Shown: positions 7,710 to 26,897, numbered from the stretch's first letter. The stretch: 53,623 nt of DNA from Patescibacteria group bacterium (GCA_038065255.1 JBBTRI010000003.1:7048-60670); one strand, 5' to 3'. The notes: generated by a model from the sequence alone, not told the origin. A program made the numbers and translations.

Positions 7710-8903
7710 TTATTTGGTAACGACTTTTACAAAGTGCCGCTTCCCCTTTTTTAGTATGATACCATCTTGCGGAATTATGGTCTCGTGGTGGACATCGTCA
7801 ATCAACACATCATTAATACTCACCGAGCGCTGACCGATAAGGCGGCGCGCCTCTGTTTTGCTTGATGCTAATCTTGCTTCAATGAGAAGATCAGCAAGGG
7901 GTATGTGAGCATGGCTGATGCGTAGTGTTGGCAGCGATTCAGGGATTTGTTTTTTCTGAAAAAGCTGCACAAAAGATTCTTCCGCACGTAGGGCCTTGCT
8001 TGTTCCGTGATAGAGCGTTACGATTTCGCGCGCCAAGATCATCTTAATATCGCGCGGGTTGGCGGCGTTGGATTGCATATTTTTTTCAAAAGCGCTTACG
8101 TCATTCAATGGTACACGCGTGCAATGAATGAGATAGGGAATAATGAGTTCATCGGGAATACTCATGACTTTGCCATACATGTCATCGGGAGTGTCGGTGA
8201 GATTGATGGTATTACCCCAACTTGAACTCATCTTTCGTCCATCGGTGCCGGTAATAAGATTCACAGTTACTACACTCTGTGCTCCTTGGCCGTAGTGGCG
8301 TTGCAGATCGCGGCCCGCAAGCATATTAAATCGCTGGTCGGTACCACCTACTTCGACGTCGCTTTTGACAACAACACTGTCGTATCCTTGCATAAGCGGA
8401 TAGAGCACTTCACGCAGAGAAATTCTCGTCCCATTATTAAGGCGTTTCGCAACGTTTTCGCGAGCGATAAATTCAGCCAAGGAAAATACATCCGCCTGTT
8501 CGCAAATTTCCCAGAACCCAAGTTTTTTCAGCCACTTCGAATTAAACTGAAATTCAACCTTGCTCATATCAAGGATCTTTGATGCCTGTTCTCTATAGGT
8601 TGCGAGATTTTTTTTCACCACTGCAGGCGAAAGCATGGGACGCTCACTATCTTTATCTGATGTGTCGCCGATCACACCCGTAAAATCTCCAATGATCAGT
8701 ACAATCGTATGTCCAAGCTGCTGAAAGTCACGGAGTTTAAGAAGTGCAACTGCGCGTCCGATATGCAGATTGGGGCTCGTGGGATCTATGCCAAGCTTTA
8801 TGCGAAGTTTTTTACTCTTGAGTTTTTTTTCGAGCTCTTCACGTCCGATAACTTCAGCAACGCCACGCGAGAGGAGTTCATTGATTTGATCTTGTTTTTT
8901 CAT
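7710..8903 (-). CDS. tyrS: Tyrosyl-tRNA synthetase
   Basis: 397 aa from the ATG at 8903 (MKKQDQINELLSRGVAEVIG). A longer in-frame reading to 8936 would overlap valS by 29 bp and is not needed. Class I synthetase charging tRNA-Tyr. The HIGH motif is PNLHIGR, preceded by LGIDPTSP; the KMSKS loop reads DGRKMSSSWGN. The middle carries YPLMQGYDSV and VGGTDQRFNMLAGRDLQ, typical of the tyrosine-binding half. The last ~65 residues are an S4 RNA-binding domain (ADLLIEARLASSKTEARRLI ... VSINDV). It lies 4 bp after the valS stop. Confidence 0.96.
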   Translation of the reverse strand: MKKQDQINELLSRGVAEVIGREELEKKLKSKKLRIKLGIDPTSPNLHIGRAVALLKLRDFQQLGHTIVLIIGDFTGVIGDTSDKDSERPMLSPAVVKKNLATYREQASKILDMSKVEFQFNSKWLKKLGFWEICEQADVFSLAEFIARENVAKRLNNGTRISLREVLYPLMQGYDSVVVKSDVEVGGTDQRFNMLAGRDLQRHYGQGAQSVVTVNLITGTDGRKMSSSWGNTINLTDTPDDMYGKVMSIPDELIIPYLIHCTRVPLNDVSAFEKNMQSNAANPRDIKMILAREIVTLYHGTSKALRAEESFVQLFQKKQIPESLPTLRISHAHIPLADLLIEARLASSKTEARRLIGQRSVSINDVLIDDVHHETIIPQDGIILKKGKRHFVKVVTK

Positions 8904-8907
8904 ATAT

Positions 8908-11670
8908 TTATGCAAACGTGCGAAGTTGTTCTTCAATCTTGCCGCGTTTTGTCTTATATTCCTCGAGTTTCACCTGTTCGTGTTTCACGATATGTTCTGG
9001 CGCGCGGACGAGGAAATCCTTGTTCGAAAGCTGTTGTTCAAGTCTTTCAATTGCGGGATTAAGTGAAGCGATGTCTTTTTCGAGCCGTTCCCGCTCTTCT
9101 TCACGCTTTAAGAGTCCAAGTGGTAAGTAGATATCAATATCACCCTCTTTTATGTAAATAGCATTTGTTGGGCGATCCCCTTCACTAAGTATAGTAACAA
9201 TATCGAGTCGTGCAAGATACTTGATTATGGTAATATTCGACTCAATAAAGTTCGTCAGTGGCGTAAAAAAGACTGCCTGAATTTTTTGTGCAGGAGCTAT
9301 GGTGTTTTCTGCTCGAGCATTCCGGATTGCTTGGACAATCGCCATTAGTACAGAAAACGCAGCCTCGCTTTTGGTGTCAATATGTTTTGTGTCCACGCTT
9401 GGCCATGGATGGATCATGAGAAGAGTTGACTTGAGTTCTCGTTTGATATGAAAGCGCGATCTACTTTCTATTTCAATGATTGCAGGCGTGAGATGCTGAT
9501 AGATATGCTCAGTAACATAGGGCATAAACGGATGCCAGAGGGAAAGAAGTGTTTCAAGGAGATGCACAAGGAGATCATGTTTTCCTTGTTCGATTTTAGA
9601 TATCTCAATATACCAATCGGCAAGCTCATTCCATGTGAAATCGGTAAGGCGCTGTGCAGCCTGTGCAAAACGATACTGGTCGATATCTGCCGTAACGTCA
9701 GCTATGGTGCGGTTGAGTCTGCTGATAATCCAGCGATCAGCAAGCGTCAAAGCAATGTTTGTATGGTCGTGCTTTTTATGTTCTCCCTGCTGTATTGGCG
9801 TAAGAATGAAGCGGCTCACATTCCAGAGCTTGTTAACAAGGTTCCGATTCCGTTCAATTTTTTCCTTTCCTAGCTTAAGATTGTTTCCCGGAGTGGTACC
9901 AATCAGAAGAGCCATGCGCAGTGCGTCAGTGCCATGGGATACTATGAATTTCAAAGGGTCGATGCTCTGCTCTTCTTTTGATTTACTCATCTTTTTCCCT
10001 TCCGCATCCAACACAAGTCCATGAAGATAGACGGTATCAAAGGGCTGCTCTCCAAGGGCATAGCGCGTGAGGATAATCATGCGAGCAACCCAGAAAAAGA
10101 TAATATCATATGCTGTTTCAAGCACTGACGTCGGGTGGAATGTGGCCAGGTCGCCGGTTTTTTTTGATATTCCATGTTTATCAGTATGTATTGCATTCGG
10201 CCAGCCAAGCGTCGCGAAAGTCCACTGTCCTGCCGAAAACCACGTATCAAGTGTGTCTTCATCGCGAATAAGCACTTCTTTTTTACATGCTGTACATGCT
10301 TGAGTTGGCGTTACTGAGACGATTGTTTCTCCACAACCACCTTTCTGCTTGGTGCAATACCACACGGGGAGTTGGTGTCCAAACCAGATTTGTCGTGAGA
10401 TACACCAGTCCTTCAGGTTGGTAATCCACGCATTGTAAGTTTTTTCGAAGCGCTTTGGCACGATCTGAGTTTTCTTGGAAGCAACCGTATCGAGAGCAAG
10501 CTCTTTGAGCGAGGCATTGTATCGTTGGATTTTTTTATCAACAGCAACAAACCATTGGTGGGAAATCAACGGTTCTATGACAGTGTCACATCGGTAGCAG
10601 ATGGCTACAGCATGGTGGTACTCCTCCTTTTTTTCGAGTAAACCCTGTGCCTCAAGTTCGGTCACAATACGCTCGCGCGCATCAAACCGATCCATACCCT
10701 TAAACTGGTTGATTTGCGACGTATCAAGACCCTCTTTGAGAATGTCCACAAGAGTAATAGCCCCATGTTCATCGAGAATCTTAACAAACTCCAGATGGTA
10801 CTTTTTACCAAGTTCAAAGTCATTGAGGTCGTGGCTTGGTGTCACTTTGAGCGCACCACTCCCAAAATCCTTATCAACATAAGGATCTGCAATGACTACA
10901 ATTTCACGGCCTACAAGGGGTAGGCGCACTGTTCTTCCGGCAAATTGCGACCATCGGGTATCAGTAGGATTCACAGCAACAGCAGTATCGCCAAGCATTG
11001 TTTCCGGCCTGGTGGTCGCAATAGTGATTGCATCACCGCCATCATGCATGGGATACTTGATAAAATAAAGCATTCCCTGGACATCGCGGTGCTTTACCTC
11101 GTCATCTGCGAGTGTTGATGTGCATCGAGGGCACCAATTGACTATCCTAAATCCACGGTAAATAAGGCCATCGTTATACATTCGAACAAAGAGCTCATTT
11201 ACTGCATGCGAAAGGCCTTCATCAAGGGTATAGCGCTCCCTACTCCAGTCGCAACTAGCTCCCATCTTACGTATCTGATTTCTTATGGTTGAACGGGATT
11301 GTTCCACATAAGCAGTTACTCTTTTGATAAATTCCTCCCTTCCTAAGTCATGCCGGGTTATGCCTTCTACGGCGAGTAGTTTTTCCACTTTATTTTGAGT
11401 GGCAATTGATGCATGATCAGTGCCGGGAAGCCAGAGCGTTCTATCGCCAATCATTCTATGGTAACGAATCATTAAGTCCTGAAGAACAAGGCCAAGCGAA
11501 TGCCCAGTATGGAGTACACCCGTGGCATTAGGCGGAGGCATCATAATACTAAACGGGGTCTCTCGGTCTGGTAATGCATCAGGATTAAAAAAACCAGACT
11601 CTTCCCACCGCTTATAGATAGTATCCTCTATGTCTTGTGGAGAATATGTTTTTTGCAGTTCATCAGGCAT
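8908..11670 (-). CDS. valS: Valyl-tRNA synthetase
   Basis: 920 aa, normal length. Class I synthetase for valine. The N-terminal Rossmann half has PPPNATGVLHTGHSLG (HIGH region) and WLPGTDHASIATQNKVEK. The editing domain follows (TTRPETMLGDTAVAVNP). The KMSKS signature is GKKMSKSKEEQSIDP, after DILFFWVARM-like YDIIFFWVARMI. A helical anticodon-binding region and a C-terminal coiled-coil arm (EERERLEKDIASLNPAIERL) complete the bacterial ValRS plan. It heads a minus-strand operon with tyrS. The promoter is at 11716-11743, leaving a leader of about 39 nt. Confidence 0.97.
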   Translation of the reverse strand: MPDELQKTYSPQDIEDTIYKRWEESGFFNPDALPDRETPFSIMMPPPNATGVLHTGHSLGLVLQDLMIRYHRMIGDRTLWLPGTDHASIATQNKVEKLLAVEGITRHDLGREEFIKRVTAYVEQSRSTIRNQIRKMGASCDWSRERYTLDEGLSHAVNELFVRMYNDGLIYRGFRIVNWCPRCTSTLADDEVKHRDVQGMLYFIKYPMHDGGDAITIATTRPETMLGDTAVAVNPTDTRWSQFAGRTVRLPLVGREIVVIADPYVDKDFGSGALKVTPSHDLNDFELGKKYHLEFVKILDEHGAITLVDILKEGLDTSQINQFKGMDRFDARERIVTELEAQGLLEKKEEYHHAVAICYRCDTVIEPLISHQWFVAVDKKIQRYNASLKELALDTVASKKTQIVPKRFEKTYNAWITNLKDWCISRQIWFGHQLPVWYCTKQKGGCGETIVSVTPTQACTACKKEVLIRDEDTLDTWFSAGQWTFATLGWPNAIHTDKHGISKKTGDLATFHPTSVLETAYDIIFFWVARMIILTRYALGEQPFDTVYLHGLVLDAEGKKMSKSKEEQSIDPLKFIVSHGTDALRMALLIGTTPGNNLKLGKEKIERNRNLVNKLWNVSRFILTPIQQGEHKKHDHTNIALTLADRWIISRLNRTIADVTADIDQYRFAQAAQRLTDFTWNELADWYIEISKIEQGKHDLLVHLLETLLSLWHPFMPYVTEHIYQHLTPAIIEIESRSRFHIKRELKSTLLMIHPWPSVDTKHIDTKSEAAFSVLMAIVQAIRNARAENTIAPAQKIQAVFFTPLTNFIESNITIIKYLARLDIVTILSEGDRPTNAIYIKEGDIDIYLPLGLLKREEERERLEKDIASLNPAIERLEQQLSNKDFLVRAPEHIVKHEQVKLEEYKTKRGKIEEQLRTFA

Positions 11671-11798: not shown

Positions 11799-11872
11799 GG
11801 GCCAGTAGCTCAGCTGGTTAGAGCATTCGGCTTATATCCGAACGGTCGAAGGTTCGAATCCTTCCTGGCCCA
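11799..11872 (+). tRNA. tRNA-Ile, anticodon UAU
   Basis: Full cloverleaf: acceptor GGGCCAG (11799-11805) pairs with CTGGCCC (11865-11871), discriminator A. The D-arm is GCTC...GAGC, and the anticodon stem TTCGG/CCGAA encloses the loop CTTATAT. The T-arm GAAGG-TTCGAAT-CCTTC follows. The anticodon is therefore TAT, reading AUA (Ile). Most bacteria read AUA with a CAU anticodon modified to lysidine by TilS; a UAU anticodon is rare. No CCA is encoded. Confidence 0.93.
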
Positions 11873-11873
11873 T
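11855..11873 (+). repeat. 19-bp direct repeat, copy 1 (inside tRNA-Ile 3' end)
   Basis: CGAATCCTTCCTGGCCCAT, covering the end of the T-loop, the T-stem 3' strand, the acceptor 3' strand, the discriminator A and one T. An identical copy is at 12017-12035, 162 bp away. The layout resembles the att-type duplication left by elements that integrate at tRNA 3' ends. Confidence 0.9.
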
Positions 11874-12035
11874 GAGTAATTCGAGTGGACAGAGCAGTCC
11901 GAACTGCTTCGGACTGCGTGAGGATTCGAAGACCGCAGCGATGTTTGGCGAGCACGCCAAACCGCGAGGGGCGTCCTGCGAGCTCGCCGAAGCGACGGCG
12001 AGGCGAGACTTGTAGGCGAATCCTTCCTGGCCCAT
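11874..12035 (+). repeat. Palindrome-rich 162-bp unit bounded by tRNA 3'-end copies
   Basis: GC-rich against its AT-richer surroundings. It holds three consecutive hairpins: 11894-11903/11908-11917 (10-bp perfect stem, loop CTGC), 11943-11950/11955-11962 (8-bp perfect stem, loop AGCA), and 11983-11989/11996-12002 (7-bp perfect stem, 6-nt loop). It ends in a second copy of the tRNA 3' end (12017-12035). No integrase or other credible gene lies inside. It could be a tiny non-autonomous element, a processed RNA tail or a relic; the sequence alone cannot say. Confidence 0.7.
12017..12035 (+). repeat. 19-bp direct repeat, copy 2
   Basis: Identical to 11855-11873. The 5' half of a tRNA is missing here, so this is a fragment and not a second tRNA gene. 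Confidence 0.9.
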
Positions 12036-12072
12036 TTGAAAAAATGTCTTATTAGTCATAACCATTAGTTCT

Positions 12073-12828
12073 ATGGCAAGCTTCATTTTTTGGGGAATAC
12101 TGGCCGTTATAGCCCTTATAATTATGGGTTTTAGGGTTCTTAATCAGTATGAAAAGGGCATTATTTTAACGCTTGGACGATATTCAGGCACGCGAAATGC
12201 CGGCCTTACCTGGATATTTCCGGGCATTCAGACCATGCTAGTTGTTGATCTACGTCTTACGACAATAGATATACCTAAGCAAGAGGTTATAACCAAGGAT
12301 AATGTACCGGCATATATTAATGGCGTTGTTTACTTTAGCGTCTTGCAGCCGGAAAAAGCCGTCTTAGAAGTTAAAAATTATACATATGCAATTTCTCAGT
12401 ATGCTCAGGCAGCGCTTCGTGATGTGATCGGTGGCGTTGAGCTTGATGTATTGCTTTCAGAGCGGGATAAGATCTCAGATGCAATTGAACAGATTGTGGA
12501 GAAGGAAATATCCGGTTGGGGGATCAAGGTGAGTTCCATAAAAATTCAAGACATAGAACTCCCATCAGATATGAAGCGTTTGATGGCACAGCAGGCAGAG
12601 GCCGAACGAGAACGCAGGGCGGTAATTATTCGAGCAGAAGGTGAACTTACAGCATCAGAAAATATGAAAAAAGCGGCGGAAAATCTCACATCAGTTCGTG
12701 GTGGATTATCGCTTCGTACACTTACAACAATAGAAGCTTCAGAAAAATCAACGATATTTGTACTACCAATCGAATTTGTTGATGGTTTCAAGGCAATTAC
12801 TGATAAACTATCTCATAAGGAACACTAA
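12073..12828 (+). CDS. SPFH/band 7 family protein (slipin-like)
   Basis: 251 aa. Stomatin/slipin-type proteins scaffold membrane microdomains and often work with NfeD-like proteases, none of which is seen here. One N-terminal membrane segment (FIFWGILAVIALIIMGFRV, residues 4-22) is followed by the band 7 domain: YEKGIILTLGRYSGTRNAGL, then VDLRLTTIDIPKQEVITKDN and YAQAALRDVIGGVELDVLLS. A helical stretch rich in Ala/Glu/Arg (QQAEAERERRAVIIRAEGEL) is typical of the family's coiled coil. It is the first gene after the palindromic unit, 34 bp upstream of rnhB. Confidence 0.9.
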   Translation: MASFIFWGILAVIALIIMGFRVLNQYEKGIILTLGRYSGTRNAGLTWIFPGIQTMLVVDLRLTTIDIPKQEVITKDNVPAYINGVVYFSVLQPEKAVLEVKNYTYAISQYAQAALRDVIGGVELDVLLSERDKISDAIEQIVEKEISGWGIKVSSIKIQDIELPSDMKRLMAQQAEAERERRAVIIRAEGELTASENMKKAAENLTSVRGGLSLRTLTTIEASEKSTIFVLPIEFVDGFKAITDKLSHKEH

Positions 12829-15034: not shown

Positions 15035-16245
15035 TTTTAGTCAACCAAAATATGAAACAAAAATTCCTCCGGTTTGTTTCAAAAGCAGCGATGTTCACAG
15101 CATCGACTGGCTTAGTGTTTTCCTCGCTTGCCCCTATGGCAGCGCATGCGGCCGTCATTACATCAATGAAGGATCAGATGTCACGCATTCAGGAAACCGT
15201 TACCTCTGACCATACGTTTACCATAACAACTGCAACCGCATGGAATGAAGCAGCTGCAAATACGATTATTTTTAAGTTCGAAGCAGGCTTTTTAGCAGGT
15301 GGCGCAACATCAACTTGGTCAACTGATGATTTTAGGTATGATGGTTTTACTACGGCCGATTCTGCCGTCACGGCTGTTAATGCAGTTGTCGATACGGCAT
15401 TGGAAACTGGCGATTTTCCAACATGCGGATCTGGTGTCATTGTGGCAGTAGCCCAAACTGTGAACGACAGTACTGGTAGCGTCAGAGAAATCGGTTTTAG
15501 AAAGTGTACAGGCGCTACAACCGATGCGGTAGGTGCTCAAATATTCTATATCTACGGAGGCACCGCAGCTCATATGGGCAGTGGTACGGGTACTGCTGGT
15601 ACTATCACAAATCCATCAGCGGGATCTAAAACGATCACTATTACCCAAGGTGCTGCTGTAGCAGCCACAGATTCCGGCAGTATGGTTCTTACTACTGTTA
15701 GTGATGATACTGCCGGAGCTTCAGGAACTGTGAGTCCCTATCTCACTGCTACTATATCCGCGCCCAGCGCTTCACTTACACTTACTCAAGATACAGTCGG
15801 CACTGCAAGTGGTGGGTCGGTGACAATTGATACGAATGCGCCAACCGGCTATGTATTCCGCATCCATGGAACAGGCAATGGCACGGGTGTTCCAGGCAAT
15901 GGCACAGGAGGTCTTTATGCATCGTCGCTTACCGGAACCGGTGGTACGGGTATTGTTACATCAGCTACCGTGGCAGATGGCAGTGTTGCAGGTACTGCAA
16001 CAGGCTATGGGCTGTCCGCAACAAGAACAGGAGAAGCGACAACCGTAGAAACAAACTATAGTCATACTAATGCAACCACCACTGGCTGGGGGGCTGTTTC
16101 AACATCGTGGACCGACGTTGTAACACAAACAGCAGAGGCGACAAATGATGTTGTTACAATTACATTCAAAGCAAAAGTTGATTATTCCGTGAGTCCTGGA
16201 ACCTATAGCGATACTGTGTATTACAACGTGTACGCTACGTTTTAA
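15035..16245 (+). repeat. 1,211-bp perfect direct repeat, copy 1
   Basis: From TTTTAGTCAACCAAAAT upstream of the ATG to the TAA of the 397-aa gene. It is identical to 17284-18494 (offset 2,249). Flanks differ immediately on both sides. No inverted ends or transposase are present. Confidence 0.97.
15052..16245 (+). CDS. Secreted surface protein, WxL/SipW-like C-terminal beta domain (copy 1)
   Basis: 397 aa. A signal peptide ends around residue 34 (LVFSSLAPMAAHAA). The mature protein opens with SMKDQMSRIQETVTSDHTFT, a module that recurs in the next two large surface proteins (LSDALSRL...PSDH and ASIPSDHTITF). Residues ~35-210 form this N-terminal module, with two cysteines. The C-terminal half is a Thr/Ser/Gly-rich beta region: ATISAPSASLTLTQDTVG, APTGYVFRIHGTGNG, then FKAKVDYSVSPGTYSDTVYY. 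This ending resembles the last strands of WxL, spore-coat-U or pilin-like domains. Lysine is nearly absent after the signal. No membrane anchor is seen, so it is secreted or held by other proteins. A structural surface role is an inference. Confidence 0.7.
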   Translation: MKQKFLRFVSKAAMFTASTGLVFSSLAPMAAHAAVITSMKDQMSRIQETVTSDHTFTITTATAWNEAAANTIIFKFEAGFLAGGATSTWSTDDFRYDGFTTADSAVTAVNAVVDTALETGDFPTCGSGVIVAVAQTVNDSTGSVREIGFRKCTGATTDAVGAQIFYIYGGTAAHMGSGTGTAGTITNPSAGSKTITITQGAAVAATDSGSMVLTTVSDDTAGASGTVSPYLTATISAPSASLTLTQDTVGTASGGSVTIDTNAPTGYVFRIHGTGNGTGVPGNGTGGLYASSLTGTGGTGIVTSATVADGSVAGTATGYGLSATRTGEATTVETNYSHTNATTTGWGAVSTSWTDVVTQTAEATNDVVTITFKAKVDYSVSPGTYSDTVYYNVYATF

Positions 16246-16272
16246 AGCATTAAAGCACCTTAGACCATAACC

Positions 16273-16278
16273 TATAAT
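16273..16278 (+). promoter_or_regulatory. Candidate -10 element for the DUF916-like gene
   Basis: TATAAT at 16273-16278. The predicted start near 16285 lies after the in-frame ATG at 16282, which favours the ATG at 16291 as the real start. The -35 is weak (TTAAAG at 16250). Confidence 0.5.
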
Positions 16279-16290
16279 CCCATGCTTAAT

Positions 16291-17211
16291 ATGAAACTAA
16301 CTCGATTGCTTTGTCTCGCTTTTGTTTCAATGTTGTTTAGTTTTCTCTTTGCTACTCAAGCTCTTGCTCTAAGAATAGCCCCTACTGTTGTTGAACTTTC
16401 AACTCTTCCCGGGGAGCCGGTTGCAGGTTTCTTTCAGGTCGTCAATAATGAACAGTCACCTCTGACTCTTACACCAACAATCTATGAAGCCGTTCCAAGT
16501 GTTAGTGATGAAAAAGGTTTTGCCAGTATTGTTGCACCTACACAAAATTCTACATTAGCAAATTGGATAAAGCTCGATGAAACCATTTTGCTTCAACCGG
16601 GTGAAAAAAAAGATATACGGTTTATTGTCACTGTTCCTCAAAATGCGCCGCCCGGCGGGCACTATGCTGCGATTTCATTGAGTCAGCCAGCAACAACACC
16701 ATCGGGTTCCGGTGCGGCAATTGTTCCTCAGTTGACGGTGAATGTCGCGCTTGATATTGCAGGTGAATCTATTGAAAAAGCAGATATTGTAAGTTTTAAG
16801 ACCGAGAGTGGAAAAACAAATTTCGATAAGTTGCCGGTGAAATTTTTTGCACGATTGCATAACGGTGGCAATAGACACTTTAGGCCTACGGGTGCTGTGG
16901 TAATCAAAAATATGTTTGGCAGTACCGTTGCGGAATTGCCAATTAAAACTCAAGATGCAGGTGGTAATATTTTACCGGGCAGTACGCGTCAGTATGATTT
17001 TGACTGGGTAGGAGAATTTGCATTTGGGAAATATACGGCAATGTTCAGTGCAGATCTTGGTGGTGCAGGTACAAAAGCAGCAAGTATTGAACTATGGGTT
17101 ATGCCCGCAGGACTTCTTGTTCTCTGGCTTATTATTGCCTTAATTATCATTGTTATACTTGTACTGCTTATTAAACGTGCAGTTTCATCGTCTAGTGCAC
17201 TGAAAAAATAG
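16291..17211 (+). CDS. Membrane-anchored DUF916/WxLIP-like protein
   Basis: 306 aa from the ATG at 16291 (MKLTRLLCLAFVS), preferred because the -10 element predicts a transcript starting after the ATG at 16282. A signal peptide ends near ATQALA. Residues ~28-140 are an Ig-like domain: RIAPTVVELSTLPGEPVAGF and VVNNEQSPLTLTPTI, then LLQPGEKKDIRFIVTVP and APPGGHYAAISLSQP. This is close to the DUF916 (WxL-interacting protein) pattern of V-N...L-P-G-E-x...P-x-G-x-Y. A second beta domain (~150-270) precedes one TM helix (AGLLVLWLIIALIIIVILVL) and a short basic tail. It lies exactly between the two identical copies of the 397-aa secreted protein, which suggests a membrane partner for them. The family call is by eye. 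Confidence 0.7.
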   Translation: MKLTRLLCLAFVSMLFSFLFATQALALRIAPTVVELSTLPGEPVAGFFQVVNNEQSPLTLTPTIYEAVPSVSDEKGFASIVAPTQNSTLANWIKLDETILLQPGEKKDIRFIVTVPQNAPPGGHYAAISLSQPATTPSGSGAAIVPQLTVNVALDIAGESIEKADIVSFKTESGKTNFDKLPVKFFARLHNGGNRHFRPTGAVVIKNMFGSTVAELPIKTQDAGGNILPGSTRQYDFDWVGEFAFGKYTAMFSADLGGAGTKAASIELWVMPAGLLVLWLIIALIIIVILVLLIKRAVSSSSALKK

Positions 17212-17245
17212 AAACTTGTCTACTGGTGTTTTATTAGAAAAGGAG

Positions 17246-17275
17246 GAGTTCTTAAATTATAGGAACTCTTCTTTG
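17246..17275 (+). terminator. Terminator between the DUF916-like gene and surface protein copy 2
   Basis: GAGTTC (17246-17251), AT-rich loop, GAACTC (17263-17268), then TTCTTTG. The U-tract is short. The sequence lies just upstream of the second repeat copy, where no strong promoter is visible. Confidence 0.5.
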
Positions 17276-17283
17276 ATTAAGAG

Positions 17284-18494
17284 TTTTAGTCAACCAAAAT
17301 ATGAAACAAAAATTCCTCCGGTTTGTTTCAAAAGCAGCGATGTTCACAGCATCGACTGGCTTAGTGTTTTCCTCGCTTGCCCCTATGGCAGCGCATGCGG
17401 CCGTCATTACATCAATGAAGGATCAGATGTCACGCATTCAGGAAACCGTTACCTCTGACCATACGTTTACCATAACAACTGCAACCGCATGGAATGAAGC
17501 AGCTGCAAATACGATTATTTTTAAGTTCGAAGCAGGCTTTTTAGCAGGTGGCGCAACATCAACTTGGTCAACTGATGATTTTAGGTATGATGGTTTTACT
17601 ACGGCCGATTCTGCCGTCACGGCTGTTAATGCAGTTGTCGATACGGCATTGGAAACTGGCGATTTTCCAACATGCGGATCTGGTGTCATTGTGGCAGTAG
17701 CCCAAACTGTGAACGACAGTACTGGTAGCGTCAGAGAAATCGGTTTTAGAAAGTGTACAGGCGCTACAACCGATGCGGTAGGTGCTCAAATATTCTATAT
17801 CTACGGAGGCACCGCAGCTCATATGGGCAGTGGTACGGGTACTGCTGGTACTATCACAAATCCATCAGCGGGATCTAAAACGATCACTATTACCCAAGGT
17901 GCTGCTGTAGCAGCCACAGATTCCGGCAGTATGGTTCTTACTACTGTTAGTGATGATACTGCCGGAGCTTCAGGAACTGTGAGTCCCTATCTCACTGCTA
18001 CTATATCCGCGCCCAGCGCTTCACTTACACTTACTCAAGATACAGTCGGCACTGCAAGTGGTGGGTCGGTGACAATTGATACGAATGCGCCAACCGGCTA
18101 TGTATTCCGCATCCATGGAACAGGCAATGGCACGGGTGTTCCAGGCAATGGCACAGGAGGTCTTTATGCATCGTCGCTTACCGGAACCGGTGGTACGGGT
18201 ATTGTTACATCAGCTACCGTGGCAGATGGCAGTGTTGCAGGTACTGCAACAGGCTATGGGCTGTCCGCAACAAGAACAGGAGAAGCGACAACCGTAGAAA
18301 CAAACTATAGTCATACTAATGCAACCACCACTGGCTGGGGGGCTGTTTCAACATCGTGGACCGACGTTGTAACACAAACAGCAGAGGCGACAAATGATGT
18401 TGTTACAATTACATTCAAAGCAAAAGTTGATTATTCCGTGAGTCCTGGAACCTATAGCGATACTGTGTATTACAACGTGTACGCTACGTTTTAA
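17284..18494 (+). repeat. 1,211-bp perfect direct repeat, copy 2
   Basis: Identical to 15035-16245. The gap between copies is 1,038 bp and holds the DUF916-like gene. Confidence 0.97.
17301..18494 (+). CDS. Secreted surface protein, WxL/SipW-like C-terminal beta domain (copy 2)
   Basis: 397 aa, identical to copy 1 in nucleotide and protein sequence, including 17 bp before the start codon. Domain plan as in copy 1: signal peptide to about residue 34, SDHT module, then a Thr/Gly-rich beta domain ending DTVYYNVYATF. Unlike copy 1, it has no obvious promoter of its own: only a hairpin-T tract (17246-17275) lies between it and the preceding gene. The perfect identity implies very recent duplication, ongoing gene conversion, or an assembly error. 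It ends 62 bp before the 881-aa surface protein. Confidence 0.7.
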   Translation: MKQKFLRFVSKAAMFTASTGLVFSSLAPMAAHAAVITSMKDQMSRIQETVTSDHTFTITTATAWNEAAANTIIFKFEAGFLAGGATSTWSTDDFRYDGFTTADSAVTAVNAVVDTALETGDFPTCGSGVIVAVAQTVNDSTGSVREIGFRKCTGATTDAVGAQIFYIYGGTAAHMGSGTGTAGTITNPSAGSKTITITQGAAVAATDSGSMVLTTVSDDTAGASGTVSPYLTATISAPSASLTLTQDTVGTASGGSVTIDTNAPTGYVFRIHGTGNGTGVPGNGTGGLYASSLTGTGGTGIVTSATVADGSVAGTATGYGLSATRTGEATTVETNYSHTNATTTGWGAVSTSWTDVVTQTAEATNDVVTITFKAKVDYSVSPGTYSDTVYYNVYATF

Positions 18495-18532: not shown

Positions 18533-18556
18533 GTTATCAGCTACGTATTGTTGTCT

Positions 18557-21202
18557 ATGTCTTTTAATACAATAAAAAGACTCCTTTTATATGTTGGATT
18601 GGTATTGGGAATAATAATTTTCATGCCAGTCAGTGTTTTTGCATCTGGCCTTACAAATTTGAGCGATGCGCTTTCACGACTTAAAACACTGGAACCATCG
18701 GATCATGTTGTACAATTTATTACTTCAGTTGGTGTTACTTCGGGCGTGATTCAAATTTCATTTAATGATGCAATTTCTAATACCAATGCCGTTGATTATA
18801 CCGACATTGATTTGCTCTACGGCCCAATTGGAAGAGAGGTCCAACAAGGTGTATATAGTGCACCTGGCACAAATACATGGGGAGCTGCTATTAGCAGCGT
18901 ACAAAAAACAGTGACATTTTCATATCCACTTGCCAATGCAACCCCTATTTTACCCGGAGAGCGTGTAATTGTGATCATAGGAAAACAAGCACTCCATGAT
19001 ATTCCAATATCCAAACAAGTATGGAAGCAGCCGCTAAACGGCATGCCGGTATCGAGAGGGCATGTAATTGATATCATTGCAGGCTCAGCATCAAGCTCAG
19101 TCGTTGTACCGATTGTATCGAATGATGTGGTAAGTTTAGTATGTCAAAGCACACTTTCTACTCCCACTACTCTAAAAGCGGAAAACAGTGCTGGTATTGT
19201 GAAGCTTACATGGGAAGATGCAGCTGACAATGAGAATGGCTTCACTATCGAGAGAAATCAAGAAATTACCGTAGCTGTCGGAGACACCACTGCAACGCGA
19301 TACTCTTCCTTTGACCAAATCCTTGATCTGCGGGCGCAGAACGCTATCCAGGCCGCAGATAATAAAATTCAAGCAGGCATAGCCTATCAGTATCGTGTAC
19401 GGGCATACAACACCTGCGGGTTGAGCGGATATTCGAATGTTGCGACAGTCAAAACACCGCCAGGCACGGTTATGTCATTAGCGCCCGCGATAGCTCCAGT
19501 TGCACCTATTGCAGAGGCAAAACCTTTCGCCCCTACGCCAACACAACCGAAAACACCGATAGAAATTCCAAAAGAAACGCCAAAAGAGAAAGTTTCGGCT
19601 ACAGCAAGTGAGAAAAAACCTCCTGCGCCAGCCGAAGTGCAAAAACCGCTACAGCCGGTCCCTAATATCAGCGGCATCCGCAGCAGTTCAACGGTGAATT
19701 CCATTACGTTGCAATGGCAAAATCCTCCCGTCACTGATTTTGCTTCTGTCAAAATTCAACGAAGCACCGCGTTATTTCCACAGTCAGTCACAGATGGACA
19801 AAACGTCTTTAACGGCAGAGCAGAGACATTTACCGATAGTGGGCTTGCTGCCGGACAAGTGTATTACTATACATTTTTTACGCTCACAAAATCTGGAGGC
19901 GTATCTTCTGGTTCATTCATTGCAGTAACAGTAAAAGAATTACCACAAGTCCCGGTATCTTTACCACCAAGCTCACCCACCACTCAAGCGGCTGCTCCGC
20001 AGGTACCGATCGTACAGGAAATTATTCCTGTTTCCCCTGCTTCATCAGGGATGCTCCCCGCGGCTTCGGCTGCGTTTGGCAGTTATTCAGCGCCTGTGGC
20101 AGTGGGTGGAGTGCCCGTGGCGCCGGCGGTTATTGTTTCGATTCCTGCCGAGGAGTCAAAAGTTGTTGTCAAACAGGATGAGGCGCAGCGCACATCAGCA
20201 GTCATGCAGGATTCATCGGGGGGCACATCTGCATTTACTGTGGATATTCCATCGAACACATTTACCGAAGAGGCTGAAGTTGCTGTTACGCCTATCACTG
20301 CTGCGCAAACAGCGATTATAGACGAGGATGCGCGAACTCCAACCGGATACGAATCTGTAGGGGGTATTGTCTATAAAATACAGGTGAAGAATGCCAAAGG
20401 CGAACGGGTAAAGAAATTTGAAAAGCCGGTCAAGCTGACATTTCGCTATAATGATTCACTTATTCAAACTATCAATGAAGAGAGTCTCAAAGTATACTAT
20501 TGGGAAAGCTCACTCAAAAGCTGGATAGCATTGAAGTCTAGTATTGATACTTCAAGTAATGTGATTATTGCAGAAGTGTCACACGCCACACTCTTTTCTG
20601 TATTTGGACAACAGCGCAGGGATATTTCTTCAGAAAAACGCAGAGATCTTATTGTTGTGTCGCAATCAACAAAAATATTCAAGCGACCGGAGAGCTATTT
20701 GTTCAGAACAGATGATTTGCATTTGACTTTTTTTGATCAGGTTCGAGGCGGTTGGAAACAGCTTGCGTCGGCAGGGCAGACATTTTATGCCGTGACCTCA
20801 TCCGTTCTTGATATTTGCATTCCGGTCTCTTTTTTCGATAAAAACACGGATACTGTTACACTTGCTCTTGCCGATGCCTTGCAGTCAGACCAATATTTTT
20901 TGGCCAAAGATTCTTCACGGCAGTGCTATGCAACATCGTTTGTAGTCCCGAAATTCCCCGGTGTATTTAACCTAGCTATTAAATCGAAAAATGCCGATGA
21001 TAGTGTTCGCACCAATTCATTTTCTTTGATGGCTGCTTCTTGGCACGAGGTGGCAATCGTGCCGCCATTGCTGCGCATCAGCGAATATGCGGGAACTCCG
21101 CGTATTGCGGGGCTCATTGCTCTCCTGATAGTCATTATTGGATTTTTTGTTTTCTTTGATGTGTACCAAAAGGTATTGAAAGGAAAAAGAAAAAAGAGTT
21201 GA
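18557..21202 (+). CDS. Multidomain surface protein with FnIII repeats and C-terminal membrane anchor
   Basis: 881 aa from the ATG at 18557; a TTG in frame at 18548 would add three residues. The signal peptide ends near SVFASG. Residues ~32-190 carry the module shared with the 397-aa proteins (LSDALSRLKTLEPSDH; then DYTDIDLLYGP, PGERVIVIIGKQAL). Two FnIII domains follow (~200-305: TTLKAENSAGIVKLTWEDA, YQYRVRAYNTCGLSGYSN; ~370-470: ISGIRSSSTVNSITLQWQNP), separated by a Pro/Lys/Glu linker. A ZU5-like region (~550-695: FTVDIPSNTFTEEAEVAVTP, ending VSHATLFSVFG) leads to a final domain and one TM helix (GLIALLIVIIGFFVFFDVYQ) with a basic tail. It is probably a cell-envelope adhesin or scaffold. Confidence 0.75.
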   Translation: MSFNTIKRLLLYVGLVLGIIIFMPVSVFASGLTNLSDALSRLKTLEPSDHVVQFITSVGVTSGVIQISFNDAISNTNAVDYTDIDLLYGPIGREVQQGVYSAPGTNTWGAAISSVQKTVTFSYPLANATPILPGERVIVIIGKQALHDIPISKQVWKQPLNGMPVSRGHVIDIIAGSASSSVVVPIVSNDVVSLVCQSTLSTPTTLKAENSAGIVKLTWEDAADNENGFTIERNQEITVAVGDTTATRYSSFDQILDLRAQNAIQAADNKIQAGIAYQYRVRAYNTCGLSGYSNVATVKTPPGTVMSLAPAIAPVAPIAEAKPFAPTPTQPKTPIEIPKETPKEKVSATASEKKPPAPAEVQKPLQPVPNISGIRSSSTVNSITLQWQNPPVTDFASVKIQRSTALFPQSVTDGQNVFNGRAETFTDSGLAAGQVYYYTFFTLTKSGGVSSGSFIAVTVKELPQVPVSLPPSSPTTQAAAPQVPIVQEIIPVSPASSGMLPAASAAFGSYSAPVAVGGVPVAPAVIVSIPAEESKVVVKQDEAQRTSAVMQDSSGGTSAFTVDIPSNTFTEEAEVAVTPITAAQTAIIDEDARTPTGYESVGGIVYKIQVKNAKGERVKKFEKPVKLTFRYNDSLIQTINEESLKVYYWESSLKSWIALKSSIDTSSNVIIAEVSHATLFSVFGQQRRDISSEKRRDLIVVSQSTKIFKRPESYLFRTDDLHLTFFDQVRGGWKQLASAGQTFYAVTSSVLDICIPVSFFDKNTDTVTLALADALQSDQYFLAKDSSRQCYATSFVVPKFPGVFNLAIKSKNADDSVRTNSFSLMAASWHEVAIVPPLLRISEYAGTPRIAGLIALLIVIIGFFVFFDVYQKVLKGKRKKS

Positions 21203-21226
21203 ACTATCAGAATGTTGTTGTATACT
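21199..21226 (+). promoter_or_regulatory. Promoter of the 1,887-aa surface protein
   Basis: -35 TTGAAC (21199-21204, overlapping the upstream TGA stop), 16-bp spacer, -10 TATACT (21221-21226). The predicted start near 21232 is two bases before the ATG at 21234, so the mRNA is likely leaderless. Confidence 0.6.
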
Positions 21227-21233
21227 ACTATGT

Positions 21234-24200
21234 ATGAGAATGCTTAAGATAGCAGGATTTTTTCTCGTCCTTGGAAGCCTTGCGCTTGCGGGTCGTTTTG
21301 CGTCTGCTGCTGAACTGATAAATGTCACCTATACTCTCCAGCCTTCTACGGCAAGTATTCCATCAGACCACACCATTACGTTCAAAACGCCATCCACGAT
21401 TTCAAACGGCACACTTACGCTCTATTTGCGGAATGTTGTTGCGGCAACAGGTATGGACGCACTTGTCGTAGGAGATATTGATCTTTCACATGGCGCAACA
21501 CTTGCAAGCCAAACTGACTATACACTCGCTGCCGCCGCTGGAAACAACCAATGGGGAGTTGCTATCAACACAACAACAAAAACCATCCAATTTACCTACC
21601 CGACAGGCGGGGCTACACAGATTGCCGCACAAGAGTATGTCATGGTAAAAATCGGAAAAAATGCCACAGGGGGAAACAGCAATAATCAAATGGTAAATAG
21701 CTCAAATATCGCCACGCGTACATTTTCGATCGTTGCTCAACCGACAGGTGGCGCAGCAGCACACGTGGGTATTGGGTATGCGCGAGGCGGCGCCCTGTCC
21801 TATGCTACTTCATCGTTTCCGCCGAAAAATGTCAGTGCGACAGCGGGGAGTTCATCGCAAGTAAGTATTGCATGGGATGTAGTAACGGGGGCTAGTGGAT
21901 ACAATGTGTACCGCAGCTCATCGACGGATGGTACGTATACACGCATTGGCAGCGATCCAAGCGTATCGAGCGGCACCACGACGGGATATTCGGATACTGC
22001 TCTTACAGCATCGACCACATACTTCTATAGAGTTACGGCTATTATCGCAAGTGTTGAGACGGGACAATCTTCCACGTCGTCGGCTACGACCCAAGCAGCC
22101 GTAACGGGAGGAACGCCCTCTGTCGGCGGTATTACAGGCGGATCAACAGGCGCGAGCTCTAGTGGAGCAACAAGTAGTGGAACAGGGACTGCATCGAGCA
22201 CAGGCACAAGCGGAACTGGCACAAGCACGTCTGGCACCACATCGACCGCAACAACAGGCACACAATCAACTCAAACAGCATCCACGGCACCAGCTCCGGC
22301 AGCACAGCAGCCAGCAGCATCTCCGCCACCTCCTCCTGCTGAATTATCAGCAACGGCAAGCGGGGAAGTTACAAACTTATCCGTTAAATTTTCTTGCACC
22401 GGCTCCGGTGGAGCATCGCCGTATAGCTCTCATGTGTGGTCATTTGGTGATAAATCAACCGGTACGGGTATAGTGGTTACCCATATTTATGCTGCACCGG
22501 GAAGCTATACGTCTACCTGTACACTTAAGGATTCTACAGGAAAGTCAGTAAGCGGTTCGGTAACAGTTCAACCGGTGCAGGAATTATCGGTCACCGCGAC
22601 TGCAAAAACTACAAATCTTTTAGCGTCATTTACATGTAGCGCATCAGGCGGCACAACGTCTTACGTTTCGTATGCATGGGATTTTGGCGATGGCGCAACA
22701 GGTACAGAATCAAGCACAACTCATAATTATAAATCTGCCGGCAGCTACTCAGCTCTGTGTACAGTGAAAGATTCGGTTGGTAAAACTGCAAGTGGATCGG
22801 TGCCGGTGCAGGCGAGCGAGCTGCTAAGCGCAAGTGCAACGGCAAGTGGCATTGAACTTGATGCGTCATTCATCTGCACAGCCGGTGGAGGCAATCCCCC
22901 CTACGCATTCGTATGGGATTTTGGCGATGGAGCAACCGGTAAAGATGCAACCGTAAAGCACACATATACAAAAGCTGGTCTTTACAGTGCTCTATGTACC
23001 GTGGCAGACGCCAAAGCGAACAAAACAACTGCGTCAGCTAAAGTGGGTATTGTTGAACCGCTTTCATTTCTTGATGCAGGCATTAAATTAAGCGGCGACG
23101 CAGGTACTCCACTTGTAAGAGCGATTGCCGATTACCCTGTTGAGGGGAAGGGATTGGATATTTATGGCAGTTGTACATCCAAAGGTGGTGTTGCTCCCTA
23201 TTCGTATCTGTGGAATTTTGGAGACACGAGCTCTTCTACTGTCAATAATCCAATCCATACCTATCGTGATGAAGGAAAGCTCTACACAAAAGAAGCATCC
23301 TGTACTATTTCTGATGCGCGAGGGAAATCTATCACAAGTCCGATCTTTACCATTACGCTTAAAGAATTATTGCGAGTGAAAGCGGCTGTCATTCCACCTA
23401 AAGACCGCACAACAATCACCACCGACCTGCCGGCAAGCCTCTCCTGTGCTGCAAGCGGCGGCGTTACGCCTTATACATATAGCTGGAAGGCAGTGCAACT
23501 TGATGAAACCGGTAGACAGATTAAGGAATTATCAGGCATGGCTTCAAGCGCGTCGCAAGAGTATCTCTTCAGCGAAGCCGGAACATATAGTATTACATGC
23601 ACTGTCCAAGATAAGGATAAACGGCAGAGTTCTAATACGGCCACTATTGGGGTCGCTAAAGTAGAGCTTGCACAGGAATTGAAACAATCCGTAGAAGAGG
23701 TGAAAAAAGAAATTGATACGGCGGTTAATACTGCCGCAGCAAAAGCCATTGATGAGATTAAAGCAGCGGCACCGCCGCCGGCACCGCCTGTTAAGTCGGG
23801 AAACCAAATTTCCGAAACAGTAACTCCTGTGAGCGGAGGCACTAGTGGAGGATCAAGTGCAGTAGCTGGAAGCGCTCAAGGCCCGCAGCCTGCAGCGCCT
23901 GCCGCCTACCAAGCCCAATCCTCACTTTTTGTTGGAACTTCAAGTGGCTCCACACCGGAAATAGCACCTATAGTACCCGCTCCTCCGGCCGGCGCTTCAG
24001 AGGCTGCTCCGAATGTTTCTCAAAATTCAGTAAGATTGACCATTTCCACGTCTGCTCCCGTGACGGGGTCTCTCTGTCAGCAAGTAGCAATAAAAAATGC
24101 AGAACATGCTCCGGAAATGTTTGTGTGGTTCTGTCCGAGTGCTGATCGGCAGACACAGAGTCAGCCACTTGGTTTGTTTGACCACATAAAGCTTGCGGCC

Positions 24201-26897
24201 CGCGATGCATGGTATGGCCTCAAGAGGCTTGCTCTTGGAACCGACCAGTCAAAAGTGAGCCTTACCTCAACTAAAAAGAAATCACTTTCTCAAGTGCAGG
24301 CAATTTCTTTGGACATCGATCAAGGGCTTATGGGTACACTTAGTTCATCATTGGAAAAACAGCTCGCAGCAGAATCGAAAAAATTGTTAGCTGCAAAAGT
24401 AAAACGCGCAACCCCTCAACAGCTTGTAAAATTATCTGCCGCAATCAAGCTCGTTGTTCAATCAGGATTGCAAAAAATAGAACTCTATTCCTTTGATGGT
24501 GCTCGGTTGGGGGATGTGACTGGAGCAACGGATTTCAGTAGCGTCTTGGTTGTCAAAAAAAGTTTGGGCGGACGCATTATTGAAATCATAGCTCCCCAAC
24601 AGATAGCGCCCGGTGCAGTTGCGGAAACAATCAGTAAGAGCGATATATTTTTTGCAAGCAATCTTCGAGAACGGAGCAATGAGCAAATAACAACCATTCA
24701 AAAAGAATTCAATAAACTTGCCCAAAAAGCATATGCTGAAGGATTGATTGCATTGCGTAAGCGGTACGCTAAAGAAATTGCTCTTTCCTCGGATGTTGAT
24801 GATGCGTTGCAAAAGACCATCATTCAGCGCCTCAAAGATCCGAGTGTTCAAAAGCAGCTCATTGATCTTGCGCGAAGCACCGTAGTGCAACAAGTGGTGA
24901 CAGGCGCAGCGGCAGAAGCTGTGCAAGACGAGGAACCGGTTGTTCCCGGCCAACAACCCACCCTCTCTCAACTTCTCCATACCCCTGATAGTATTACCAT
25001 TGCGCCGCTTAATCAGGGTCAGGCAGAGAAGCTTCTTAAGCAAGAACTTGTTGTTCCCGGTTTTCCCGGAGCAAAACCGCTACCGAATCAAATTAAAGAA
25101 GTGAGCGTTCTGGATGAGAATAGTAACGGTCTTATCAAACTACCTTCACCCATGAAGCTGACCATGTGCTGGGATGATACCATTCTGAATGCGATGAATA
25201 TTTCTATTGATCCGATGAATCCCTCGAGAAGTATGTGTATTGCCCACTTTGACCCCTTAACAGGAACGGGAACATGTGAGAAGGCCGTCTTTGATATGGC
25301 AGCAAAATGTGCGACAACAGAAGTAGACAGCGTTTCAATTTTTGCACTTTTCGGTAAAAGCGGTACTGCAAAACAGGAAGAATCTCTCGATCAAAAACCG
25401 CAAGTGGATATCACTGTCATGCCGTCTGTCCGCTTGCGTCTCGTAGAGTCTCTTATTGATAGCGACGATTTGGGTATTCACCAGCAAGAAGAAGCGGTAA
25501 ACCCTTCTGAGCTGGCGGGCAATATTTATATTGCACCATCAACACAGTTATCGCTCTGTATTTCACCTAATGCGTTTCTGAAAAAAGTAAAAGGAATCAA
25601 TGTTTCCATCGGGTCAAAAACATATCCACTGGCGTATGAACAATCGCGTTTGTGTTTTTCAGGAAAACTGACCGTGCCGAGCGATCAGGGTGCAAAAAAA
25701 GTACAGATGCGAATTGTATATATCGATGATCAAGTGCAGATCATTACACTTAATACTGTTGTTACAAATAAACTTCAAGCAATTATCCTTAATCAAATAG
25801 CATTGCCCGTGAGCGAAGTTTCAAAAATCATTGCAGCAGTAAATGAACAAGTCAAAGAAACGGTTGAAGTGGCGCAGTCGGCGCTTCAAACGACAGCTGT
25901 AGCCGCCGCTCCGGTTGTTGCCGTAGCAAATCCGGCTGTTTTGACAAACACAGTCAATTGGTACCACTATCTTAATCACCTCTTTTCATGGCTATTTTCA
26001 ATACTCGGTTTCCGTAAGCGCCGAAAGCCATGGGGAGTGGTGTATGATGCCGCAGCAAAAGAACCGATTGACCTTGCAGTCGTCCGCCTGTTCGATAAAA
26101 AAACCAATAAACTTGTGGAAACGCAAGTCACGGATAAGCATGGGCGTTTTAGTTTTCTTACAACACCGGGCACGTATTCGCTTTCCATTGCAAAACCGCC
26201 CTATACATTTCCATCAACCATTGTTACCAAAACGGTTGATGGCGAATATGCAAATATCTATCGCCAACAGGATATTACCATCTCCAACCCCGACCAAGTG
26301 ATGAGTATGAGTATTCCGCTCGATCCGCCAAGCCGCGAACGAGTCAAGGGGCTAACACCCGTTCAACAAGTCAATCAGTTTTTGAAACAGCATTCGTCCG
26401 GATCGCTTATTGTTGGACTTGTGATAAGCGCAGCGCTTGCATTTTACACGCCGGGCGTAGTGAATGGGACGCTTTTTGTACTGAACGGCATCTATGTGTT
26501 TTTTCAGCTCACGATTATGGGCCGTACAGAAAAACCATGGGGTATTGTATTTAGTGCAGCAACACTTGAACCGGTACCGCTTGCGGCGATTAGCATTATC
26601 GATGCAAAAGAAAATAAAGTATTACGTACGCGACTTACTGATTATTACGGACGTTTCAATTTTCTTACGCCACCCGGCATGTACTCCGTTCTTGTGTCAA
26701 AAGATGCCTATCAATTCCCCATTCCCGAATCAATGAATATTCCAAAATACCACCATATCTATCGTGGCGGGACAATGCGAATTAAGAAAGAAAAGGGATA
26801 TATAAAAATTAATGTTCCTCTTATACCCAAAAGCAGCTCATCTGCATCACCAAAAAAATCACCCCCTTCATCAACGCCGCAATCCGCAGCAGCTTGA
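21234..26897 (+). CDS. Giant PKD-repeat surface protein with carboxypeptidase-regulatory-like domains
   Basis: 1,887 aa. Signal peptide to about residue 25 (ALAGRFASA). Order: SDHT module (26-190: SIPSDHTITFKTPSTISNGT), FnIII (~195-289), Ser/Thr/Gly linker (290-365), five PKD-like domains (~370-810: e.g. AWDFGDGATG and VWDFGDGATGKD), a short coiled coil (811-846) and a Pro-rich linker. A long unassigned region with several cysteines ends in VDSVSIFALFG (~1375). After TM 1 (~1576-1595) and RKRRK come a CarboxypepD_reg-like domain (1599-1690: KPWGVVYDAAAKEPIDLA; HGRFSFLTTPGTYSL), a TM hairpin (1723-1763) and a second such domain (1767-1860: YGRFNFLTPPGMYSVLVS). Probably an envelope-spanning structural protein or adhesin. 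Confidence 0.8.
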   Translation: MRMLKIAGFFLVLGSLALAGRFASAAELINVTYTLQPSTASIPSDHTITFKTPSTISNGTLTLYLRNVVAATGMDALVVGDIDLSHGATLASQTDYTLAAAAGNNQWGVAINTTTKTIQFTYPTGGATQIAAQEYVMVKIGKNATGGNSNNQMVNSSNIATRTFSIVAQPTGGAAAHVGIGYARGGALSYATSSFPPKNVSATAGSSSQVSIAWDVVTGASGYNVYRSSSTDGTYTRIGSDPSVSSGTTTGYSDTALTASTTYFYRVTAIIASVETGQSSTSSATTQAAVTGGTPSVGGITGGSTGASSSGATSSGTGTASSTGTSGTGTSTSGTTSTATTGTQSTQTASTAPAPAAQQPAASPPPPPAELSATASGEVTNLSVKFSCTGSGGASPYSSHVWSFGDKSTGTGIVVTHIYAAPGSYTSTCTLKDSTGKSVSGSVTVQPVQELSVTATAKTTNLLASFTCSASGGTTSYVSYAWDFGDGATGTESSTTHNYKSAGSYSALCTVKDSVGKTASGSVPVQASELLSASATASGIELDASFICTAGGGNPPYAFVWDFGDGATGKDATVKHTYTKAGLYSALCTVADAKANKTTASAKVGIVEPLSFLDAGIKLSGDAGTPLVRAIADYPVEGKGLDIYGSCTSKGGVAPYSYLWNFGDTSSSTVNNPIHTYRDEGKLYTKEASCTISDARGKSITSPIFTITLKELLRVKAAVIPPKDRTTITTDLPASLSCAASGGVTPYTYSWKAVQLDETGRQIKELSGMASSASQEYLFSEAGTYSITCTVQDKDKRQSSNTATIGVAKVELAQELKQSVEEVKKEIDTAVNTAAAKAIDEIKAAAPPPAPPVKSGNQISETVTPVSGGTSGGSSAVAGSAQGPQPAAPAAYQAQSSLFVGTSSGSTPEIAPIVPAPPAGASEAAPNVSQNSVRLTISTSAPVTGSLCQQVAIKNAEHAPEMFVWFCPSADRQTQSQPLGLFDHIKLAARDAWYGLKRLALGTDQSKVSLTSTKKKSLSQVQAISLDIDQGLMGTLSSSLEKQLAAESKKLLAAKVKRATPQQLVKLSAAIKLVVQSGLQKIELYSFDGARLGDVTGATDFSSVLVVKKSLGGRIIEIIAPQQIAPGAVAETISKSDIFFASNLRERSNEQITTIQKEFNKLAQKAYAEGLIALRKRYAKEIALSSDVDDALQKTIIQRLKDPSVQKQLIDLARSTVVQQVVTGAAAEAVQDEEPVVPGQQPTLSQLLHTPDSITIAPLNQGQAEKLLKQELVVPGFPGAKPLPNQIKEVSVLDENSNGLIKLPSPMKLTMCWDDTILNAMNISIDPMNPSRSMCIAHFDPLTGTGTCEKAVFDMAAKCATTEVDSVSIFALFGKSGTAKQEESLDQKPQVDITVMPSVRLRLVESLIDSDDLGIHQQEEAVNPSELAGNIYIAPSTQLSLCISPNAFLKKVKGINVSIGSKTYPLAYEQSRLCFSGKLTVPSDQGAKKVQMRIVYIDDQVQIITLNTVVTNKLQAIILNQIALPVSEVSKIIAAVNEQVKETVEVAQSALQTTAVAAAPVVAVANPAVLTNTVNWYHYLNHLFSWLFSILGFRKRRKPWGVVYDAAAKEPIDLAVVRLFDKKTNKLVETQVTDKHGRFSFLTTPGTYSLSIAKPPYTFPSTIVTKTVDGEYANIYRQQDITISNPDQVMSMSIPLDPPSRERVKGLTPVQQVNQFLKQHSSGSLIVGLVISAALAFYTPGVVNGTLFVLNGIYVFFQLTIMGRTEKPWGIVFSAATLEPVPLAAISIIDAKENKVLRTRLTDYYGRFNFLTPPGMYSVLVSKDAYQFPIPESMNIPKYHHIYRGGTMRIKKEKGYIKINVPLIPKSSSSASPKKSPPSSTPQSAAA

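Follow-up and report, generated by a model that had tools for sequence, protein, structure and literature searches.

The duplicated gene and its neighbours

The window, which is the whole 53,623-nt stretch of DNA analysed here, belongs to a Patescibacteria group genome (G000) of 1.09 Mb in 27 contigs that is 99% complete. The bacterium carrying it is probably small and host-dependent, and its genome size and gene content point to a Patescibacteria-type organism. A cluster of genes for presumed surface proteins was identified in the window, in which a gene related to WxLIP (DUF916) lies between two copies of a smaller gene. The features of this cluster are as follows.

15035..16245, + strand: repeat unit R, copy 1 (17-bp leader, gene and stop codon); exact repeat
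15052..16245, + strand: slot-1 surface protein gene, 397 aa; signal-peptide-like start, N- and C-terminal regions common to the wider P1 family
16282..17211, + strand: WxLIP (DUF916)-like gene, 309 aa, with a C-terminal hydrophobic helix; present in 10 of 11 family genomes
17240..17274, + strand: strong hairpin, 15-bp stem and 5-nt loop, between the WxLIP-like gene and copy 2
17284..18494, + strand: repeat unit R, copy 2; exact repeat
17301..18494, + strand: slot-2 surface protein gene, 397 aa, same as slot 1 in the assembly; exact repeat
18548..21202, + strand: large surface protein, 884 aa, with Fn3 domains; N-terminal region resembles the slot-1 and slot-2 proteins
21234..26897, + strand: very large surface protein, 1,887 aa, of the same cluster; homologues 3' of the WxLIP-like gene in most relatives

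Positions 15035-16245 and 17284-18494 form an exact repeat of 1,211 bp, with a start-to-start spacing of 2,249 bp. The repeat starts 17 bp before the ATG (15052 and 17301) and ends on the stop codon, with 0 further identical bases past either end. Both ORFs encode 397 aa and have a signal-peptide-like start. No other same-strand repeat of at least 20 bp is found in the 53.6-kb window, so chance is ruled out for the 1,211-bp repeat. Only two matches for the repeat gene were retrieved from the genome, both by DNA and by protein search. The first-pass annotation had described two 397-aa proteins identical from 17 bp before the ATG to the stop codon, with differing flanks, and the exact-repeat comparison confirmed this. 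Its further statement that the unit is one whole gene with neither transposase nor terminal repeats is also supported: no transposase was recognised among the neighbouring ORFs examined, and the repeat ends without an inverted repeat. Duplication mediated by a transposon or IS element is thus not supported by these neighbouring ORFs and repeat ends.

The gene between the two copies had been annotated as DUF916-like, which matches to PF06030 bear out. The window protein itself matches PF06030 with an E value of 0.0066, which falls short of the curated cut-off, and all eight members of the WxLIP-like family alignment match it (best E 1.1e-9). The best PDB match of the WxLIP-like profile is EfmWxLIP1, a weak one with an E value of 0.055, and DUF3324 gave no match to the protein at E <= 0.1. 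A hydrophobic stretch can be seen at its C-terminus and is retained across the alignment. The WxLIP-like protein is probably the anchor of the surface protein encoded on either side of it.

The hairpin at 17240-17274 has a z score of -2.8 for a 79-base stretch, and is unique in the genome, not a repeated element. It is a possible terminator or attenuator. Because this strong hairpin lies just before copy 2, the two copies are probably transcribed differently. Scans for promoters and terminators performed no better than those of shuffled sequences.

The 884-aa and 1,887-aa proteins encoded at 18548-26897 resemble the 397-aa protein in the N-terminal region, which suggests a module shared by the small and large partners of the cluster. 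A segment of the 884-aa protein (G000:C3:25652-25960) matches the partner-family model with an E value of 8e-7. Elsewhere in the window, an 84-aa ORF ending GQEGFEPSTVRI lies on the minus strand at 11832-12086; it is most likely spurious because of its 41-base overlap with the tRNA-Ile gene at 11799-11872.

Assembly of the repeat

The first and last 300 bases of all G000 contigs were compared, with the ends of contigs C16 and C21 N-masked, and nine pairs of ends were found to share an overlap of exactly 55 bp. Such overlaps identify a de Bruijn assembly with k=55. We take this contig-end signature to be of the SPAdes type. Long reads may have contributed to the assembly besides short reads. 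At k=55, 77 and 127, the graph of the window contains just one node with an in-branch and one with an out-branch. The two branch nodes sit at the two ends of the repeat, forming a simple loop A-R-B-R-C, and this loop can be unrolled without any read or read pair across R. R is one graph edge printed twice, and its perfect identity is forced by the method. Near-identical copies, or more than two copies, would print alike in a k=55 graph, and the number of loop turns is not firmly fixed. metaSPAdes collapses most strain differences, with bulge settings more aggressive than those of SPAdes (review, PMC8021871). Since R is a single edge printed twice, the identity and the copy number of two are partly products of the method and were not independently measured.

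All four repeat junctions are present within one 60-kb contig and must derive from real reads. For a single-copy origin there would have to be two strains, one carrying the gene before the WxLIP-like gene and the other after it. The duplicated pair is probably real and recent. Full identity had been taken in the first-pass annotation to imply a recent event or gene conversion. This holds for the likely class of cause, as conversion-like patches recur in the family, but not as a measured age, as a collapsed edge was printed twice. "Perfect" duplications in short-read metagenome assemblies should be treated as upper bounds set by the method, not as measurements of age.

Partner genes in related genomes

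The 397-aa protein has no sequence match in Pfam, NCBIfam or the PDB, and no confirmed match among the genome contigs and viral contigs searched. A Pfam search with eight partner proteins gave no match, and a PDB search with the partner-protein profile returned nothing. The partner family is not described by any public model searched. An AlphaFold2 model of the 397-aa protein alone had a pLDDT of 35, and hence was not used. The partner-family model matches 93 of the 381 genomes of the class at E <= 1e-5, a count in which some matches cover one half of the model only, in large proteins. In a phylum-wide draw, the family was detected in 59 of 380 genomes at E <= 1e-10. The WxLIP-like gene adjoins the partner gene in most loci read, and clusters of two to four partner copies are common. 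The partner proteins are presumably located at the cell surface. Tandem copies number four in G059 and three in both G715 and G535, and are divergent (48-78% amino acid identity). For example, L116:340-4664 (G059:C38) contains four tandem partner genes with 58-78% amino acid identity, followed by one WxLIP-like gene.

G000 is the only genome of its genus among those compared, and ten others share the family. The syntenic order is valS, slipin, rnhB, methyltransferase, yraN-like gene, the 397-aa-like gene where present, WxLIP-like gene, large surface proteins, nusA and H+-pyrophosphatase. Where the first-slot gene is present in the family, it lies directly upstream of the WxLIP-like gene, and most relatives have a single copy just upstream of that gene. 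A first-slot gene with no similar second gene was found in G002, G007, G008 and one G009 locus. The layout of surface protein, WxLIP and surface protein also occurs in G001, in one G009 locus and in G213, the last from another, more distant family. Amino acid identity between slots 1 and 2 is 30-40% in G001, 37% in G009 and 45% in G213. G001 is the nearest relative by WxLIP-like protein and has a slot-2 gene. At L018:9462-10614 (G001:C14), a single frameshift breaks this gene into two ORFs that overlap, which may reflect decay or a sequencing error.

In the phylogenetic tree, slots 1 and 2 of G009 fall into different supported clades, and those of G001 fall into one group. As the slot-2 genes do not form one lineage, repeated refilling of slot 2 is suggested. 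The window gene is on the longest branch of the tree (2.02 changes per site), and its exact placement is unsure. Judged from the sequences compared, the identity of slots 1 and 2 is specific to the window lineage, and the two-slot layout also exists with different occupants. Clearly divergent copies in relatives had been named in advance as grounds for rejecting a recent event; such copies do occur in G001, G009 and G213, yet recent copying is not refuted by them.

In pairs of paralogues, positions encoding the same amino acid in both were searched for uninterrupted runs of codon identity, with shuffled codon order as the reference. About 24 such tests were performed; three strong cases survive correction and the weaker ones are suggestive. 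The three are synonymous-identity runs of 195 codons in G200 (587 bp exact), 55 codons in G715 and 43 codons in G561, each with P <= 0.0002. Weaker runs were detected in G213 (15 codons, P 0.003) and in one G059 pair (P 0.012). No significant run was found in G152, G091, G535, G403, G503, G655, G009 or most G059 pairs, nor in a control pair of WxLIP-like genes. Synonymous tracts bounded by divergent sequence, which we used as the criterion for gene conversion, are found in the relatives G200, G715 and G561, and weakly in G213. The window pair has no divergent part left and its identity is forced by the assembler; the evidence for conversion rests on the relatives.

In G200, the 587-bp exact repeat (L127:5565-6151 and 8462-9048, contig C12) is the C-terminal domain of two adjacent large family genes, the remainder of which is ~45% identical. 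The run stops 10 bp before the stop-codon end, after which synonymous differences return. The repeat-spacer-repeat form of this pair could share the assembly caveat of the window, but its mosaic border is not explicable by edge copying alone. Two tandem partner genes in L141:4820-7277 (G715:C2) have a DNA identity of ~47-65% over the first half, which rises to 72-100% over the second. In the G213 pair, the first 20 codons are 80% and the last 20 codons 88% identical, with ~50% identity inside, and these conserved gene ends could serve as recombination handles.

Origin of the pair and comparison with known systems

Our main reading, to which we give a probability of about 0.5, is that this is a WxL-cluster-like surface locus in which the slot-1 gene was recently copied over or into slot 2, with RecA-type gene conversion between paralogues as the most likely means. 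A RecA gene is present in the window genome. The cluster would encode two small secreted proteins, in slots 1 and 2, on either side of a WxLIP-like partner anchored in the membrane, followed by very large surface proteins. The occupant of slot 2 would recently have been replaced by a copy of the slot-1 gene through homologous recombination. Conserved gene ends would let the conversion tract span the whole gene and halt where homology stopped, just ahead of the ATG on one side and at the stop codon on the other. The two genes would then encode the same protein in different transcriptional contexts. We infer the direction from slot 1 to slot 2, the recombination mechanism and an effect on dosage. 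The 1,211-bp direct repeat would be expected to promote loss or amplification of the WxLIP-like gene together with one copy.

The slot itself may have been newly created in G000, since most family members lack slot 2, which argues against overwriting. That most paralogue pairs gave no significant codon run also counts against the main reading. We consider it a tentative possibility that microhomology-mediated repair at TTTTA, for instance template switching, duplicated the slot-1 gene de novo into an empty gap 3' of the WxLIP-like gene. With TTTTAG as its first and TTTTAA as its last six bases, the repeat unit would fit at a single TTTTA site, and this 5-base microhomology fits non-homologous copying. 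TTTTAA is, however, a common Phe-stop end in the family, and the microhomology may be an AT-rich coincidence. Identity between slots 1 and 2 of G000 is zero outside the gene, which also fits simple insertion, and the absence of a second gene at G002, G007, G008 and one G009 locus agrees with an empty gap, but the slot-2 gene of G001, nearest by WxLIP-like protein, argues for an occupied one. It is unlikely that the pair is a product of the assembly, with one real copy, or two strains each with one copy on different sides of WxLIP, and the loop printed twice. The short-read k=55 assembly, a simple loop needing no spanning read, and the aggressive collapsing of variants by metaSPAdes (PMC8021871) are consistent with such a product. 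Yet the four junctions, including WxLIP-to-repeat and repeat-to-884-aa-gene, need real reads and thus two strains if the gene is single-copy, and relatives independently show the two-copy layout.

Selection for dosage appears more improbable still. Here continual recombination would keep the two copies, or those of an extended (WxLIP-repeat)n tandem array, identical to supply an abundant surface subunit. Multi-copy clusters are indeed common in the family (four tandem copies in G059, three in G715 and G535), and the assembly does not fix how often the loop is passed; the tandem genes of these relatives nevertheless diverge (48-78% amino acid identity), so dosage alone does not preserve identity. 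Antigenic variation of a programmed kind, in which silent donors supply an expression site, is very improbable. Surface proteins are involved, conversion-like patches occur in relatives, and the G213 pair has a divergent middle between conserved ends, but both G000 copies are complete and identical ORFs and the genome has no further divergent full-gene donors. No silent cassettes or recombination signals were found. The likeness to antigenic-variation loci drawn in the first-pass annotation is unsupported, given two intact, identical copies and no silent donors in the genome by protein search.

Of greater interest than the pair itself is that recombination recurs among the copies of an unnamed partner family. 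A wider proposal, which we regard as doubtful, is that this family, whose quickly evolving secreted proteins have WxLIP-like anchors as partners in Patescibacteria-type genomes, is continually rewritten across the phylum as adjacent copies recombine. Rewriting would be domain-wise in G200, G715 and G561 and gene-wise in the window, and would let reduced cells change or synchronise their host-contact proteins. In reduced bacteria of this kind, host cells are probably contacted through surface proteins, whose mode of change is poorly known.

In the WxL gene clusters of Gram-positive bacteria, WxLIP combines DUF916 and DUF3324, and the commonest cluster, with one WxLIP and two WxL partners, accounts for 98 of 179 clusters (PMC10599100). 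Like these clusters, the window has a WxLIP-like protein, presumably membrane-anchored, flanked by secreted partners. One WxLIP-like gene with at least two partners is found in the window, G001, G009 and G213, where P1-like proteins are counted as partners by analogy only. Unlike in WxL clusters, the WxLIP-like protein of the window gave no DUF3324 match at E <= 0.1, and the large proteins lack the W-x-L motif and contain Fn3 domains or other regions. The W-x-L motif is absent from the 397-aa, 884-aa and 1,887-aa proteins. As the partners have neither this motif nor a match to a WxL model, the locus is termed WxL-cluster-like and is not called a member.

Paralogous surface-gene pairs shaped by gene conversion are known from Plasmodium DBLMSP/DBLMSP2 (PMC10919680), and nearly identical hagB paralogues from Porphyromonas gingivalis W83 (PMC5266723). 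The window resembles both in having paired or neighbouring paralogues, with tracts common to otherwise divergent genes. It differs in that its identity spans the whole gene and in that it comes from one genome of an uncultured lineage. Antigenic variation of the TprK type occurs in Treponema pallidum (mentioned in PMC10013896). Surface protein genes, with intragenomic conversion as a possible process, are common to TprK and the window, but the window has no single expression site, no silent donor set and no variable regions between copies. The genes tufA and tufB are near-identical duplicates with unrelated flanks, homogenised by conversion and maintained by recombination. Unlike these housekeeping genes, the window gene encodes a fast-evolving surface protein, as its branch of 2.02 changes per site indicates. 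If the copy is real and recent, it would be an extreme case of the recombination that reshuffles or homogenises WxLIP-associated surface genes in several relatives.
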